NCBI RefSeq assembly: GCF_900188005.1
Contig: NZ_FZNR01000004.1
Coordinates: 124,001 to 188,000, forward strand
Direction: 5' to 3'
DNA length: 64,000 nucleotides
Origin: Actinoplanes regularis
GTDB taxonomy: Bacteria; Actinomycetota; Actinomycetes; Mycobacteriales; Micromonosporaceae
Shown: one piece after another, positions 16,656-59,222 of the stretch
Layout: each line of letters begins with the position of its first letter
Numbering within the stretch: position 1 is the stretch's first letter
The notes under the pieces: model-generated
What the model saw: the letters and a program-made list of their open reading frames with translations, nothing else
What the model was told of the DNA's origin: nothing
Databases searched by the model: none
Position numbers and translations under genes: made by a program

Positions 16656-17425
16656 TGCCCATCACCACCGCCGCGGACGGGGCCGGAATCTACTACGAGC
16701 GGCACGGCTCCGGGCCCGCGATCGTGTTCGTGCACGGCTCGGGCGGGCACCACGCCGCCTGGTGGCAGCAGGTGGCCGCGCTGCGTGGCCGGTACACCGT
16801 GGTCACCGTGGACCTGCGCGGCTTCGGCCGGTCCGATTCGTCCATGCCGGAGTTCGACGGCCAGGACTTCCCCGGCGACCTGATCGCCGTCCTGGACGCC
16901 GAGGATCTGCGGGACGTGCTGCTGGTCGGCCAGTCGATCGGCTCGGTCGCCGCGCTGCGGGCCGCCCTGAGCCGCTCCGACCGGGTCGCCGGCGTCGCGC
17001 TCGGCCACTCCCTCGGCGGTATCGACCACCCGGAGCTCTCCGAGCTGGTCGCCGCCGATCGGGCCGAGGCGGTCAAGCTGCCCGTCCTCGACCGGCTGAT
17101 GAGCGGCGAGTTCCAGCGGGAGGAGCCCGCCAAGACGTTCCTCTTCCAGCAGATGGGCACGTTCAACGTGGCCAGGATGGCCGATCTGCGGAACCTGTCG
17201 ACCGGCGGGCCGACGATCGACGAGGTCGTCGCGTCCGGCGTGCGGGTCTGGTTCCTGGCGGGGGAGAGCGACGCGGTGCTCAGGGCCGCCACCGTCCGCC
17301 GGGCGCACGACCTGGTGAAGGGCTCGCGGCTGGAGATCGTGCCGGGCGCCCCGCACTCGATGTACTGGGAGTCGCCCGACCTCTACAACGCCGCCGTGGC
17401 GAGGATCCGGGAGGAGCTCTCATGA
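16655..17425 (+). CDS. Alpha/beta-hydrolase
   Basis: The 256-residue protein has the oxyanion motif HGSGG (27-31), nucleophile Ser94 in GQSIGS, a probable acid Asp in AGESDAV and His in GAPHSM. This is the pattern of meta-cleavage C-C hydrolases (MhpC/BphD type) and related esterases, which fits hydrolysis of a ring-fission product. The stop overlaps the start of a leader repeat as ATGA. Confidence 0.85.
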   Translation: MPITTAADGAGIYYERHGSGPAIVFVHGSGGHHAAWWQQVAALRGRYTVVTVDLRGFGRSDSSMPEFDGQDFPGDLIAVLDAEDLRDVLLVGQSIGSVAALRAALSRSDRVAGVALGHSLGGIDHPELSELVAADRAEAVKLPVLDRLMSGEFQREEPAKTFLFQQMGTFNVARMADLRNLSTGGPTIDEVVASGVRVWFLAGESDAVLRAATVRRAHDLVKGSRLEIVPGAPHSMYWESPDLYNAAVARIREELS

Positions 17426-17486
17426 GCGAATCGGCAAGCTCAGTTGTCGGCTCATGCCGACGCCGGAGCGCAGCGGAGGTGGCGGC
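17422..17486 (+). repeat. Leader-ORF repeat, short copy (65 bp)
   Basis: This element encodes a 22-residue peptide (starting MSESASSVV, ending AAEVAA). Its ATG overlaps the alpha/beta-hydrolase stop (ATGA at 17422-17425), and its own TGA overlaps the next gene's ATG (ATGA at 17487-17490). The last 26 bases nearly match the three tandem copies at 39636-39866, including GCGGAGGTGGC just before the next start. It lacks 12 bases found after ATGAGC in those copies. It appears to be an insertion that kept the coupling of the two flanking genes. Confidence 0.8.
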
Positions 17487-17930
17487 ATGAGGTTGACCTT
17501 GGTCGAGGCCGAGGAGATCCTGGCCGGCGCCCTGCAGCGGGGCGCGGAGCTGGGCAAGGCGTTGAGCGTCGCGATTGTCGACGCGGGCGGACACCTGATC
17601 GCGGTGAAGCGCTCCGACGGCGCCCGGGCGCTCACCCCGGAGATCGCGATCGCCAAGGCGTACAGCTCGGCGATCATGGAGCGGCCCACCAACATGCTCT
17701 ACGACTGGGCCGACAGCAACCCGGGCTTCTTCGCGCAACTGTCGAACCTGGCCGCCCGCCCGATCGTGGCCACCGAGGGCGGCGTGACGATCAAGCGGGA
17801 CGGGGAGATTCTCGGCGGGCTCGGCGTCTCCGGCGGCACCCCGGCGGAGGATCAGAAGGTCTGCGAAGAGGTGCTGACCGGGCTGGGATACGAGCTCACC
17901 TTCGCGGCGTGGGGGAAGAACCGTGGCTGA
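17487..17930 (+). CDS. GlcG/HbpS-family protein
   Basis: A 147-residue protein of the GlcG/HbpS (DUF336) fold: VAIVDAGGHLIAVKRSDGA near the N-terminus and the glycine-rich GGLGVSGGTPAEDQKVCE near the end. Some members bind haem or corrinoids; others are accessory proteins in glycolate, diol or aromatic catabolism. Its start is placed by the leader repeat's GGAGGT. It overlaps the next gene by eight bases. Confidence 0.85.
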   Translation: MRLTLVEAEEILAGALQRGAELGKALSVAIVDAGGHLIAVKRSDGARALTPEIAIAKAYSSAIMERPTNMLYDWADSNPGFFAQLSNLAARPIVATEGGVTIKRDGEILGGLGVSGGTPAEDQKVCEEVLTGLGYELTFAAWGKNRG

Positions 17931-39461: not shown

Positions 39462-39635
39462 CGTGGTTCCTCCACATTCGACGGACGCGACGACCGCGTG
39501 CCGCCGCCGGGGTCGCCGGCCGCGCCCACGGCATCGAGGGTGATCAGCGTCCGAAGATTAACTGACCTGAATGTGACGGGGAAGCGCCACCGTGTCACTC
39601 TGGGGAAAGTTGGAAAGCGGAGGAAAAGCGCCCCC

Positions 39636-39712
39636 ATGAGCGAGCTTGCGAGCGAATCGGTCAGCTCAGTCAAAAGGTCGTGGCGACGCCGGAGCGAAGC
39701 GGAGGTGGCCCC
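39636..39712 (+). repeat. Leader-ORF repeat, tandem copy A (77 bp)
   Basis: The unit is an ORF of 26 codons (MSELASESVSSVKRS, then WRRRSEAEVAP). It starts with ATGAGC and its TGA (39714-39716) overlaps the ATG of copy B as ATGA. It ends with GCGGAGGTGGC, a strong ribosome-binding sequence for the next start. It is visibly less G/C-rich than its surroundings. Confidence 0.85.
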
Positions 39713-39789
39713 ATGAGCGAGCTTGCGAGCGAATCGGTTGGCACAGTTGTTGGCTCATGTCGACGCCGGAGCGAAGCGGAGGTGGCGGT
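39713..39789 (+). repeat. Leader-ORF repeat, tandem copy B (77 bp)
   Basis: Same architecture as copy A, peptide MSELASESVGTVVGS then CRRRSEAEVAV. Its stop overlaps copy C's ATG. The middle differs from copy A but is shared with copy C, so B and C are the more recent duplicates. Confidence 0.85.
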
Positions 39790-39866
39790 ATGAGCGAGCT
39801 TGCGAGTGAATCGGTTGGCACAGTTGTTGGTTCGTGTCGACGCCGGAGCGAAGCGGAGGTGGCGCC
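39790..39866 (+). repeat. Leader-ORF repeat, tandem copy C (77 bp)
   Basis: Differs from copy B at only a few bases in its coding part and in the spacer before the next start. Its TGA (39868-39870) overlaps the AAA ATPase ATG at 39867, and its GGAGGT provides that gene's ribosome-binding site. Confidence 0.85.
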
Positions 39867-41312
39867 ATGAACCGGGAGATCTTCGAGTACTTTGGCGCAG
39901 CTGTCGAACTGGTCGACGCGTCCACGATTTTGGCGGCCGCCCGGGTTAATCCGGTCGAACTGGTGCACCACGCCGAATGGCCGGCTCCGGTTCAACGCGT
40001 CGAGCTCACCGTGTCGAGCACAGCCGACGCGGCCGACCCGGCGCACGTGTTCGTCGCGCGGCTCCACGCCGGTGCGGAGCCGATGACCACCGAGCGGATG
40101 CGGGGGATGGTGCTGGGCCACGACCCGATCGGCCTGCTGCTGTCCAAGCGGATCGCCGAGGGGGATCCGGTCGCCACCCGGCTCGTCGACGGGGTGGGTG
40201 CGGCGGCGGCCGCGGCGTACCGGAAATTGGGTTTCGACAAGGCGAACGGCCCGGCGCCGGACCGCTCACCGGGAGTCTTCGCGGACGCCGCCGTCGGGCT
40301 GCGGGCCGAAGTGGATCACGAGGCGGACGGCGACGTCATCCGGTTGCGGGCCGAAGTGCCGCGCGACGAGGTGACCGCGAACCACCTGCGCGCCTTCGTC
40401 ACCCTCACCCTGCAGGCGGTGGTCGAGCTGGCCGAACCGGACGCGCTGCGCGGACGCCGCTATGTGTTCAGCCGGGAGGCCGTCCCGCCGCCGGCCCCGG
40501 TCACCACCCAGCAGGTCACCCTGGACATGGTCGGCGGTCTGGTGGACGTGGTCGCCGAGCTTCGGCAGATCGCGGTGTCGTTCCGGCATCCGGAGGCGAT
40601 GGCGCGCTGGGGCGCGCGCCGCCCGCAGGGGCTGCTGATGTACGGGCCGCCCGGCACCGGCAAGACCATGCTGTCGCGCGCCCTCGCGAACGAGATCGGC
40701 GCGGATTTCCGGGAGATCCGCACCCCGGAGATCCTGGACAAGTGGCTCGGCGGCTCGGAGCGCAACATCAAGCAGATCTTCCGCGACGCCCGCCGCTACC
40801 GGGTTCCGACGCTGATGCTGTTCGACGAGTTCGACTCGATCGTGAGCTATGCCGGTGCCGGTGGGGACGCCGCCAGCCAGGCGCTCAACGCGGTGGCCGG
40901 GATCTTCAAGCAGGAGATGAACGATCTGATCGAGGCGAACCCGGACGTGATCGTGGTGGCCACCACCAACTTCCCGGAGCGGGTCGACGAGTCGCTGATC
41001 CGTTCCGGACGCTTCGACGTCAAGATCAGCGTGCCGAAGCCCGACGAGGCGAGCCGCGCGGAGATCTTCCGGAAGATGATCGAGGGCCTCGTCGCGGCGC
41101 ACGAGCGGGGCGGGTTCCGGATGTTCGCCGACGAGCTGGACCTGACCGCGCTCGGGGTGGCCAGCACCGGGATGACCGGCGCCGACATCAAGGAGGCGCT
41201 GCGCCGGGTGCAGATGACCAAGGCGATGCAGGAGGCCCGGACGGGACGGGCCGAGCCGATCTCCCAGGCGGAGCTCCTGGCGGCGGTGCGGGACCTGCGC
41301 GGCAACGTCTGA
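39867..41312 (+). CDS. AAA-family ATPase (FtsH/Cdc48-like AAA module) with unknown N-terminal domain
   Basis: A 481-residue protein. The AAA module (about 220-440) has Walker A GPPGTGKT, Walker B LMLFDEFDS, sensor 1 VATTNFPE and an arginine-finger region RSGRFD. The first 210 residues do not match a family I know, and there is no membrane segment or protease domain. It would remodel or disassemble a protein partner in an ATP-dependent ring (inference). It is preceded by three tandem leader-ORF repeats and has no obvious partner gene. Confidence 0.88.
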   Translation: MNREIFEYFGAAVELVDASTILAAARVNPVELVHHAEWPAPVQRVELTVSSTADAADPAHVFVARLHAGAEPMTTERMRGMVLGHDPIGLLLSKRIAEGDPVATRLVDGVGAAAAAAYRKLGFDKANGPAPDRSPGVFADAAVGLRAEVDHEADGDVIRLRAEVPRDEVTANHLRAFVTLTLQAVVELAEPDALRGRRYVFSREAVPPPAPVTTQQVTLDMVGGLVDVVAELRQIAVSFRHPEAMARWGARRPQGLLMYGPPGTGKTMLSRALANEIGADFREIRTPEILDKWLGGSERNIKQIFRDARRYRVPTLMLFDEFDSIVSYAGAGGDAASQALNAVAGIFKQEMNDLIEANPDVIVVATTNFPERVDESLIRSGRFDVKISVPKPDEASRAEIFRKMIEGLVAAHERGGFRMFADELDLTALGVASTGMTGADIKEALRRVQMTKAMQEARTGRAEPISQAELLAAVRDLRGNV

Positions 41313-52216: not shown

Positions 52217-52638
52217 CGGGTACGACCGATGGAGCGCTGTGGCCAGGCTCGAGGCCAAGTCCCGTGACATCTCGCGCGGGGCTCGCGCCATCCGGCCCTC
52301 AGCCGCGCGTCACGGCCCGCTTTCCGGTCGCGTGTCACGGCCCGCTTCCCGGCCGCGTGTCACGGCCCGCTCCCAGCTGCGGGTTGCGGCTGGTGGCGCC
52401 GCTCGCGGTTGGTGGGCGCGGCCGTTCCGGGATGTGGGCGGGTGCTCCTGGTAGGCGGGCCGCTGCGCCGACGTCGGGGGCTTGCGGGGCCCGGTGCGGC
52501 GCTAGGTGCGCAAGGTTTCCGCGTTCGCGGTGACGGCGGCGACGCGCGGCGGCAACCGGGGGTGGCACGGGCCTCGCGCGGGAAGGTCACGGAACTTGGC
52601 TCGAGCCTGGCGACGGGGCTCCATCGGTCGTACCCGGA
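52217..52638. mobile_element. MITE-like inverted-repeat element in a 541-bp gene-free gap
   Basis: The gap 52127-52668 has no credible gene. It contains two long imperfect inverted arms: 52217-52295 and about 52560-52638. Reading the right arm in reverse complement, both begin TCCGGGTACGACCGATGGAG and continue with CCAGGCTCGAG and CCAAGT in register, with few mismatches and one indel. Between them lie three 25-bp tandem repeats. No transposase and no clear target duplication were seen, so a non-autonomous element is inferred. Confidence 0.55.
52305..52379. repeat. Three tandem 25-bp repeats inside the inverted-repeat element
   Basis: Units starting at 52305, 52330 and 52355 share GTCACGGCCCGCT. 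Copies differ by a few bases. They are not spaced by unique sequence, so this is not a CRISPR array. Confidence 0.7.
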
Positions 52639-54816: not shown

Positions 54817-55563
54817 ATGAGACGCCGATTCACCCTGCCCCTGCTGACCGTCGCGGCGGTCGTCGGATCGCTGTTCGTGGCCGTCAGTCCGGCGTCCGCG
54901 CACGGCTACATCTCATCCCCGCCCAGCCGTCAGGCCAACTGCGCCAGCGGTGCGGTCGCCAACTGCGGCGACATCATCTACGAACCGCAGAGCGTCGAGG
55001 CCCCGAAGGGTTCCACGCAGTGCAACGGCGGCGGCAGCCGCTTCGCGGTGCTCAACGACAACAGCAAGAACTGGCCGGCCGCCACGGTCGGGCAGTCGGT
55101 CACCTTCAACTGGGTGCTCACCGCGCGGCACTCGACCGCGACCTGGGAGTACTTCATCGGCGGCACCCTGCTGGCGTCGTTCAACGACGGCGGGGCGCAG
55201 CCGGGCGCGACCAAGTCGCACACCGTCAACATGAAGGGGTTCACCGGACGGCAGACCGTGCTGGCCCGGTGGAACATCGCGGACACGGTCAACGCGTTCT
55301 ACTCCTGCGTGGACCTGAACATCGGTGGCGGGGGCGGCACCACCCCGCCGACCACTCCGCCCACCACCTCGCCGACCACTCCGCCGACCACGTCCCCGAC
55401 GACGCCGCCCACCTCCGGCACCACGACGTGGGCGGCCGGAACCACCTACAAGGTGGGGGACCGGGTCACCTACGCCGGCAAGTCGTACCAGTGCCGGCAG
55501 GCGCACACCGCGATCAACGGCTGGGAGCCGCCGAACGTGCCGGCTCTCTGGACCGCGCTGTAA
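54817..55563 (+). CDS. AA10 lytic polysaccharide monooxygenase with carbohydrate-binding module
   Basis: A 248-residue secreted enzyme. The signal ends at ASA, exposing His29 (HGYISSPPSRQ), the first ligand of the copper histidine brace; the second is His in TARHSTATWEYF. The catalytic domain ends near 170, followed by a Thr/Pro linker with several PTTPPTTS units and a C-terminal CBM5/12-like module (TTYKVGDRVTYAGKSYQCRQAHTA landmark). It should oxidatively cleave chitin or cellulose. An inverted repeat lies in its promoter. Confidence 0.93.
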   Translation: MRRRFTLPLLTVAAVVGSLFVAVSPASAHGYISSPPSRQANCASGAVANCGDIIYEPQSVEAPKGSTQCNGGGSRFAVLNDNSKNWPAATVGQSVTFNWVLTARHSTATWEYFIGGTLLASFNDGGAQPGATKSHTVNMKGFTGRQTVLARWNIADTVNAFYSCVDLNIGGGGGTTPPTTPPTTSPTTPPTTSPTTPPTSGTTTWAAGTTYKVGDRVTYAGKSYQCRQAHTAINGWEPPNVPALWTAL

Positions 55564-56951: not shown

Positions 56952-59222
56952 TCAGACGCACTGCCCGGAGACGTCGAGGAGGGCATTCATCTGCTCCTTG
57001 GACCATCGATGTGTGCCGAGCTGGTTGACGATGAGCACCTCGTCGGCCTGGGCCGTGCCGTCCACGCACCAGTCTGCCAGCAGGGAACTCCGGCCGCTGC
57101 CGGTGAGCTTGCGCTCCAGGCCGGCCCGGTCGGCGGCCTGTATCCAGCCGGCCGCCGGTTCGAGGTAGATCAGCGCGATCCGTCTGCTGTCCGGCGGCGC
57201 GTGCTCGGCCACCCCGGTCGACGACGCGGCCGGGTTGCGCCCGTTGAGCTGCCGTAACGCGGTTCGCAGGTTGGCGTACAACTTGTCGCTGCTGACCGTC
57301 TTGATCTGGAACGCCTCGGTCTCGGTACGACCCGAGACGGCCCGCTCGACCAGCAGGTCGACCCTGTATCTCCGGCCGCCGACCTCCTTGACGCCGTCGA
57401 GCAGGACCCGCGCCCGGGGATCGGCGCGCAGCGTGGTCACGGCGACCTGGACCTCACGGCGGAAGCCGATCCTGCCCTTGTCCGGCTGGGGCGCCGTGGG
57501 ATCGGGATCGATCTCGAAGTCGAGCTGGCTCAGCTTCTCGGCGAGATCCTGCGGATTCTCCAGGCGCCCGGACTGGGTGAGAGTCTGCAACTCGGGGACG
57601 GCGTTCTGGCGGAACGCGTTCTCGACCGCGGCGAGCACCTTGCCGGGGCGGAAGCCGGCCCGGCCGGACATCACGTCGAGGGCCCGGTAGGCGATGGCTT
57701 TCTGCACCTCGTCGCCGTTGTTCAGGATCGAGGCGTTGGGTATCTCGATGCCGCGCGAGCGGAGCCGGTTGATCACGGCCGCGGAGGCTCCGGCCAGGTC
57801 GGGGCTGAAGATGTCAGCCGTGTAGTCGACCGGGACCTGAGTGGTGCGGCCCGCGACCCGCGGGGCCGGGTTGGCGAAGGTCATCGGCGCGGTGGTGCGG
57901 CTCTCACCTGGCTGGAGCGTGCCGATCGAGATGGTGCGGGTGGGCATGCCGGGACTAACCGTCGCGACGACCGAGGCGCGGCCGGCGGCGGTGCCGGTGT
58001 TGGTCACGGTGACCGTCCACCGGCAGGTGGGGGTGGTGCAGTTGGTGGCGTTCACGGTGGTCTCGAAGTGCGGGAGCTTCGGGAGGACGGACCCCTCGAC
58101 GGGTGGCTCCTCGGGCGCTGGGAGCCCGCCGGACCTGGCGGCCTCCGGAAGAACCTTGGCGACGGCCCGCTGGACGGATTGCGCCGCGCCGTCCGGGGCG
58201 TCGTTGACGGTGACGCTGACGTACGGCGGCTGCGGCACGGCGACCGGAGCGAGCGCGTAACGCGCGGGGCGCGGGCTTCCGGCGTACGCCGATGTGGGGT
58301 GGAAAGCGGTGGGGGTCGCGGACCGTGGGCCGGCCTGCGGTCGTGCCCAGGAGACCGGCTTGATCGGGCCGGATCTGGTGATCGGGCCGCCGAGCCAGAC
58401 GAGAGTCTGCGGCGATTCCGTGGTGACCAGGACCGACCAGCCGTTCCACGTCATGCCGGCGACGCGCCGGCCGCGGAACGGGTCCTCGACGGGCATCACG
58501 GTGCCGTGGTCGCGGACCTGGGCGAGCAGGTGGGCGAGGGATCCCGGGTCGAAATTGCCGGTGAGCTCCACCGGGAACGGGTCGGCGGACGGGGTGGCCC
58601 ACTTCTTCCGCAGCGCGCCGGCCTGGTCGGGGTTGCGCCGCGACCACCAGTCGGCGTCGCCGCGGACGGCCGAGTACGCGGTGTATTCGACCAGGTCGGC
58701 GGTGCCGGCGACCGGGTCGGTGATGGTGCCGGTGGCGTTGAGCTCGTCGTCGAGCGTGAATTTCCCGCTGATCGACTCGCCGTCGGGGTCGGCGTAGGTG
58801 ACCTCGACCGCGGTGGCGGACTGGTCGTGGAGCCGGTCGGCTGCCGCGCCGATCGCATCGGCGCCGGTCTTCTCGCGGGTGAGGAGGAAGAGCGTGGTCG
58901 TGACCGCACAGATCAGGGCGAGACTGACCGCGGGGAGGACGGCCCGCCGACGGGGCCGGACCGGCGCGGCCACCAGGCTCGCATCCGGCGGCATCGCGGG
59001 CGGTTCCTCAACCGGCATCGCGGGCGGTTCCTCAACCGGGGGCGCGGGCGACTCCCCACCCGGGGCGGGTGGGCCCCAGACCGGTTGCGTATCCGGCCGG
59101 TTGGCCGGCGGTGACGACCATGGTCCGGCCGGGGGCGTCCGGTCCGGCTGCTGAGGCCGGTTGGCCGGCGGTGACGACCATGGTCCCGGCGGCGTCCGGT
59201 CCGGCTGTTGGTTCGGATCCAT
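56952..59222 (-). CDS. Large membrane-anchored protein with possible CdiA-type nuclease tail
   Basis: A 756-residue protein. The first 95 residues are Pro-rich with repeats (PWSSPPANRP twice, VEEPPAMP twice). A single membrane segment (AVLPAVSLALICAVTTTLFLL) follows, then an outside region with a CARDB-like beta domain (WTVTVTNTGTAAGRASVVATV). Near the end, YRVDLLVER (Asp622) and FQIKTV (Gln639, Lys641) and the helix LYANLRTALRQLNG match the D-(E/Q)xK layout of CDI-type nucleases, with Gln instead of Glu. Function unproven. Confidence 0.7.
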   Translation of the reverse strand: MDPNQQPDRTPPGPWSSPPANRPQQPDRTPPAGPWSSPPANRPDTQPVWGPPAPGGESPAPPVEEPPAMPVEEPPAMPPDASLVAAPVRPRRRAVLPAVSLALICAVTTTLFLLTREKTGADAIGAAADRLHDQSATAVEVTYADPDGESISGKFTLDDELNATGTITDPVAGTADLVEYTAYSAVRGDADWWSRRNPDQAGALRKKWATPSADPFPVELTGNFDPGSLAHLLAQVRDHGTVMPVEDPFRGRRVAGMTWNGWSVLVTTESPQTLVWLGGPITRSGPIKPVSWARPQAGPRSATPTAFHPTSAYAGSPRPARYALAPVAVPQPPYVSVTVNDAPDGAAQSVQRAVAKVLPEAARSGGLPAPEEPPVEGSVLPKLPHFETTVNATNCTTPTCRWTVTVTNTGTAAGRASVVATVSPGMPTRTISIGTLQPGESRTTAPMTFANPAPRVAGRTTQVPVDYTADIFSPDLAGASAAVINRLRSRGIEIPNASILNNGDEVQKAIAYRALDVMSGRAGFRPGKVLAAVENAFRQNAVPELQTLTQSGRLENPQDLAEKLSQLDFEIDPDPTAPQPDKGRIGFRREVQVAVTTLRADPRARVLLDGVKEVGGRRYRVDLLVERAVSGRTETEAFQIKTVSSDKLYANLRTALRQLNGRNPAASSTGVAEHAPPDSRRIALIYLEPAAGWIQAADRAGLERKLTGSGRSSLLADWCVDGTAQADEVLIVNQLGTHRWSKEQMNALLDVSGQCV
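58989..59036 (-). repeat. 24-bp tandem repeat in the Pro-rich leader
   Basis: Two identical 24-bp units (58989-59012 and 59013-59036) encode VEEPPAMP twice. A further 60-bp repeat lies at 59096-59155 and 59156-59212, encoding the PWSSPPANRP units. Both are inside the membrane-protein gene, so this is repeat expansion of a linker. Confidence 0.8.

Follow-up and report, generated by a model that had tools for sequence, protein, structure and literature searches.

MIRUs, the short repeats of mycobacteria, are the nearest described counterpart of the element analyzed here. In passages of a 2025 review (PMC12548453, citing Supply et al. 1997), MIRUs are described as apparently mobile units that insert at start codons and carry an internal ORF coupled at a spacing of −4 nt, and part of another report gives units of 77 bp and 53 bp, in 1 to 7 copies, for the senX3-regX3 locus (PMC2453075). 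Gene pairs that overlap by ATGA have also been described, in part of PMC6728339, to use termination-reinitiation, with a −4 overlap and the Shine-Dalgarno sequence inside the upstream ORF. Since MIRUs have been described as mobile, inserted at start codons and coupled at −4 nt, the kind of element is already known, and the remark in the preliminary description that no described element of this kind was known is not supported, in view of the MIRUs described in the review (PMC12548453). We report here a MIRU-like family in Actinoplanes regularis, found from a tandem array in front of an ATPase gene.

Anatomy of the array and of a second copy in the window

The window, i.e., the whole stretch of 64,000 nt that was analyzed, contains at 39632-39870 a repeat with a period of 77, 3.1 copies and a score of 359 (Tandem Repeats Finder). 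It consists of unit 1 (39636..39712), unit 2 (39713..39789) and the terminal unit 3 (39790..39866), all on the forward strand. Each unit is 77 bp long and forms a mini-ORF of 26 codons whose TGA overlaps the next ATG, that of unit 3 overlapping the ATG of a gene for an AAA-domain ATPase of 481 aa (39867..41312, forward strand; Pfam AAA domain, E 2.3e-31). Coordinates, ORFs and Pfam thus confirm what had been noticed from the letters alone, namely three head-to-tail 26-codon ORFs which are joined by ATGA and lead into an AAA ATPase gene. Every unit has ATGA at its start and GCGGAGGTGGC plus 3 nt at its end, followed by the next ATG. A Shine-Dalgarno-like GGAGG on the forward strand precedes unit 2 (39701..39705), unit 3 (39778-39782) and the ATPase gene (39855-39859), in all three cases 7 nt before the ATG, so that the unit would, as first suggested, supply the ribosome-binding sequence of whatever follows. 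The unit alignment likewise agrees with the earlier remark that the middle of the peptide is the variable part. The 22-nt motif from the 3′ end has 4 matches within the window, compared with a shuffle mean of 0.00, and no Rfam family matched 39500-40000 in a search up to an E value of 1.

The first ATGA of this array does not mark the end of a gene, as only 20 open codons lie upstream of it. As no upstream gene is closed there, the array at this locus, judged by its sequence, is a leader, in contrast to most copies of the family. The second copy in the window (17422..17486, forward strand) is a unit of 65 bp with a 12-bp in-frame deletion, which keeps the register of the 77-bp units. Its first TGA (17423-17425) is the stop of the upstream ORF, and at its 3′ end it meets the ATGA start of the next gene, which encodes a 147-aa protein of the HbpS-like haem-degrading family (17487..17930, forward strand). 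Other repeats of the window are a 25-bp tandem repeat at 52302-52371 (2.8 copies, 91% matches, CGTGTCACGGCCCGCTTCCCGG-like units), whose unit length is no multiple of 3, and 24-bp tandem repeats at 55338-55413 and 58989-59065, which are possibly coding.

Genome-wide family in A. regularis

A 17-mer from the 3′ part of the unit occurs at 128 sites in the 10.03-Mb genome when up to 2 mismatches are allowed, whereas the reversed pattern occurs at 4. A sequence model made from 50 units gave at least 148 hits at E ≤ 1, of which 140 were kept and eight weak ones (E 0.001-0.4) excluded; C29:92830 (E 0.0014) was retained, as were three weaker hits that lie in or beside other units. The retained hits form 89 arrays, every one of which was read: 52 single, 25 double, 10 triple and 2 quadruple. 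The 77-bp unit is therefore an interspersed repeat family.

In 87 of the 89 arrays, the chain that starts at the first ATGA reaches a downstream ORF, and all 87 ORFs have at least 60 codons and a GC3 of at least 0.8. This was the check put forward in the preliminary description, that dispersed copies should have a start codon in register behind them. According to the rule of the script, 76 of these links are stop-start (NTGA) overlaps and 11 are in-frame fusions. The exceptions are one array without a start codon (L083) and one with a broken chain (L095). The latter (C49:269135) is a diverged array before a gene that begins with MSVDVGDDGSRPRISARQQRILTVIRDSVR and looks LexA-like by eye. On the upstream side, the TGA of the first ATGA closes an ORF of at least 90 codons and GC3 ≥ 0.8 in 70 of the 89 arrays; at that threshold, 19 arrays, the window array among them, have no clear upstream ORF.

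The fused copies are mostly 5′ fragments of the unit that make up a new N terminus of the gene (MSELASES...), and the element hence seems, from these reading frames, to donate N termini to host genes. In-frame fusions of 5′ fragments were seen at L063, L068, L070, L078, L080, L090 and L111, in genes of 243 to 525 codons; C27:39140 and C36:131406 are example coordinates of such fusions.

Preservation of the reading frame

In 39 of the 89 arrays, the units are not plain 77-mers or have no intact start, and 37 of these 39 are still coupled or fused. When indels of 1 to 33 nt were simulated in intact arrays, coupling or fusion survived in 68% of the deletions and 62% of the insertions, and the binomial probability of 37 of 39 is accordingly 3e-6 to 6e-5, a value that overstates independence, as the 65-bp type recurs. 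Premature stops were present in none of 45 aligned 77-bp units; the expectation is 26% for random substitutions at the observed divergence, 10% if these are confined to the variable middle, and 0.15% when the observed alignment columns are resampled.

These results bear on the idea that the repeats act mainly in transcription or as an untranslated leader, as a promoter or spacer, in which the ORF is incidental. The arrays without a clear upstream ORF would suit such a role, and the senX3-regX3 intergenic region, which bears MIRUs, is reported in part of PMC4213456 to be able to drive regX3 alone. However, the frame is kept in 37 of the 39 indel arrays, the 45 units are free of premature stops, and a TGA/ATG overlap is found at nearly every unit end, which together make this explanation very unlikely.

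Empty sites and patchy distribution

At eight conserved junctions of A. regularis, the unit was found in 0 of 48 aligned sequences from relatives (2 to 10 per junction); one relative (L219) dropped out of the alignments, and L235 is the genome itself. At the empty sites of L006, L017 and L098, the upstream gene runs straight into an NTGA in which the start overlaps the stop, and A. regularis has ATGA, array and NTGA in place of this single NTGA. Some relatives (L257-L260 and L262) carry unrelated extra sequence at the junction, and the upstream tails aligned poorly at L018 and L008. At the window locus, 19 relatives lack the core motif within 600 nt upstream of the gene. The closest of them (L311-L313) have GCGGAGGAA and 3 to 4 nt, followed directly by the ATG, and A. 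regularis has the array in between. The forward-strand segment 39600..39635 would be the pre-insertion leader; it contains the older GCGGAGGAAA Shine-Dalgarno-like stretch, which in the relatives lies directly 5′ of the start codon of the ATPase gene.

The distribution among genomes is patchy. The exact core 16-mer has 96 hits in A. regularis and 60 in a second genome (G021), and among the remaining genomes of the genus that were searched it has 1 to 9 hits in 17 and none in the other 17. A stretch of 48 nt is identical between a locus of genome G019 (L274) and a locus of Actinoplanes flavus (L200). In A. regularis (L009) and A. flavus (L156), one insertion site is apparently the same, with the flank CTTCGAGCAGGCGTC, and the copy number there differs between the species, with two units and a fragment in the former and one unit in the latter. 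A scan of named genomes gave, among the matches listed, at least 54 stretches in Dactylosporangium (6 species), at least 24 in Actinoplanes (10 species), and single stretches in Hamadaea and Sphingomonas that have no start codon in register behind them and look like strays. An ATG or GTG stands 1 to 4 nt after the core in 25 of 26 Actinoplanes hits and 66 of 68 Dactylosporangium hits, and in Dactylosporangium 49 of 52 units have ATGA-type overlaps to the neighbouring ORFs, the other 3 reading through. In plasmid and phage records, a search in distant mode found no match to the 234-bp array.

Considering the empty sites together with the in-register chaining at ATGA, we read the unit as a mobile element that enters at start codons of the ATGA type and leaves translational coupling intact. 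A locus-specific VNTR, produced by slippage within the leader of the gene itself, would account for the fact that units within one array resemble each other more than units of separate arrays do, but it is contradicted by the 89 places at which the genome carries the unit, by the occurrence of the unit in other species and by the clean empty sites of the relatives, and we give it practically no credence.

A proposed hairpin through the Shine-Dalgarno sequence and the start codon

RNAalifold, applied to the 50 units, predicts a stem directly 5′ of the next ATGA, in which two pairs show changes on both sides. The stem extends through the start codon, with an internal arm, usually GCTCAT, complementary to ATGAGC, so that the 3′ arm of the hairpin holds the Shine-Dalgarno sequence, the downstream start codon and codon 2; the loop reads GCGNAGC, its middle base being free. 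The internal arm tracks its partner: it is AGTCAT or GGTCAT before ATGACC, GCTCAC before GTGAGC, and GTTCGT before the ATGAAC of the window gene. In the hairpin proposed for the terminal unit of the window (39830..39872, forward strand), GTTCGT (39830-39835) is complementary to ATGAAC (39867-39872), including one G.T.

Covariation between arm and gene start was evaluated in 68 terminal units of A. regularis with the exact 25-nt core (21 of the 89 arrays fall outside this set), in 45 terminal units among 55 collected from other Actinoplanes, and in Dactylosporangium (37 distinct of 69 units). The null consisted of shuffles that swap the genes and ignores the relatedness of the copies; the host genes are different ones. 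The base after ATGA forms a Watson-Crick pair in 63 of the 68 terminal units of A. regularis (shuffle mean 49.5), in 38 of 45 in other Actinoplanes (29.4) and, in Dactylosporangium, in 71 of 87 units overall (39.6) and 32 of 37 terminal ones (15.2), with no shuffle as high in any of these sets. Covariation at the first base of the start codon is seen in Dactylosporangium (28 of 87 versus 14.7; terminal units, 8 of 37 versus 3.9); it is weak in A. regularis (51 of 68 versus 45.5) and absent in other Actinoplanes (39 of 45 versus 39.2). Dactylosporangium units also have a left hairpin, starting at ATGA, which covaries at 1:35 (37 of 43; shuffle mean, 27.0) and 5:31 (36 of 43; shuffle mean, 20.2), and base 5 of the left and right sides agrees in 23 of 28 terminal units. 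The corresponding left-hairpin pairing of Actinoplanes, ATGAGCGAGC with GCGAGCGAAT, is nearly constant.

Folding predictions back the pairing of arm and start only in part. The probability of the 4:44 pair exceeds 0.5 in 40 of the 68 terminal units of A. regularis, and gene swapping lowers its mean only from 0.57 to 0.46-0.50. The minimum-energy fold of the terminal unit in the window differs from the proposed hairpin.

Proposed mechanism

We consider it highly probable, on sequence grounds, that the unit is a nonautonomous mobile element of the MIRU kind, with a mini-ORF coupled to the host gene and a hairpin matched to the gene start. A ribosome that has completed the upstream gene, or has initiated at the old ribosome-binding site, would translate the mini-ORF and then restart on the host gene, and the insertion would therefore be nearly harmless. 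Arrays of 2 to 4 units may have grown by tandem duplication. The hairpin would mask the start until it is opened by a ribosome that translates the mini-ORF; such RNA-unfolding coupling, a model described in the review (PMC12548453), is probably the likeliest reading of the structure.

The hairpin and its matching arms might also be a DNA device, in which single-stranded hairpins at both ends of the element bind the adjacent ATGANN by base pairing and select the target, or keep it in place, while the element transposes; translation coupling would then be only the condition under which an insertion survives. A GCGNAGC-type loop is unusually stable in single-stranded DNA, and the unit has this loop with a free middle base; in Dactylosporangium, the element pairs with the neighbouring ATGANN at its left as well as its right end. 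On the other hand, near-identical neighbouring units at L001 and L017 have different arms, each fitting its own partner, which fits a change in place better, although such a change is visible in only 2 of about 6 informative arrays. The analysis identified no transposase that acts on the ends. We regard the DNA device as possible, if rather doubtful. Both functions could be united in an element that seeks start codons with two guide arms pairing with ATGANN on each side, one of which would later serve in the mRNA as a lock opened by translation of the mini-ORF. This is speculative and, in our opinion, unlikely; if it were true, subfamilies with different arms would enter different starts (ATGAGC, ATGACC, GTGAGC), and target choice and translational coupling would both depend on the same pairing.

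The coupled mobile element of the MIRU kind that we prefer would offer a natural set of portable translation-coupling parts, with which a gene stays expressed when its start codon has received an insertion, and new protein N termini would come from the 5′ fragments of the element. To our knowledge, how MIRUs move and why they constantly land on start codons has not been worked out. The present family makes movement and start-codon targeting testable in a nonpathogenic system: a genome contains some 140 units, close relatives have next to none, the empty sites are clean, and the hairpin covaries.

Comparison with known systems

REP elements, which are mobilized by RAYT (Y1) transposases, are like the present unit in being short, hairpin-forming, dispersed and nonautonomous. 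They differ from the Actinoplanes unit, which sits at start codons, contains an ORF and has ATGA at its ends. REP elements have a GTAG tetranucleotide at the foot of the hairpin, and this foot is absent from the unit. Y1 transposases (PF01797) are encoded in 7 of 22 genomes of the genus, and at least two elements occur in 5 of the 7 genomes with Y1 versus 2 of the 15 without it, a weak association (one-sided Fisher, 0.014) for which the threshold was chosen afterwards. An intact Y1 transposase of A. regularis was considered as the mobile partner, and the two flanking stretches inspected showed no unit-like end. The ATGA-overlapping gene pairs mentioned above share the −4 overlap and the internal Shine-Dalgarno sequence with our unit, but in them an ordinary gene, instead of a mobile unit, provides the upstream ORF.

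As for mycobacterial sequences, a presumed MIRU core is present in 19 of the 397 genomes searched in the order, which all belong to one genus, presumably Mycobacterium. Twelve such loci were read; their repeats share GAGCGNAGCG, including the free N, with the Actinoplanes unit, and some have ATGA ends. Of the 297 genomes searched in the presumed Mycobacterium genus, 13 match the ETR-D forward primer (PMC2453075) with one mismatch and none exactly, and the loci contained no repeat arrays of the core but only three single GAGCGNAGC sites. Two loci of presumed Mycobacterium (L208 and L216) have the mycobacterial repeat at the same junction, before a gene that by eye resembles frr; the ends are of the type NTGAT (TTGATT/ATGATC and GTGATT/GTGATT) and point to a target duplication of more than 4 nt.

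A search of the literature found no hairpin of the present type described for MIRUs, and in the open-licence literature no report of such elements in Actinoplanes or its relatives was found. Like MIRUs, the family consists of short units in tandem and dispersed (89 arrays of 1 to 4 units), each unit being an ORF with ATGA-type overlap (87 of 89 arrays) that is mobile at start codons, which we infer here from empty sites. The host differs, the soil-dwelling relatives Actinoplanes and Dactylosporangium instead of mycobacteria, and the sequences are unlike outside the GAGCGNAGCG core. The likeness thus appears to be one of anatomy and position, with only this short core in common, and the element is best called MIRU-like, not a MIRU. 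The Actinoplanes/Dactylosporangium element is distinguished by a hairpin through the downstream start whose arms match the host genes, and what appears to be new here, as judged from the sequences, is this lineage together with a hairpin arm that covaries with the start and second codon of the host gene.
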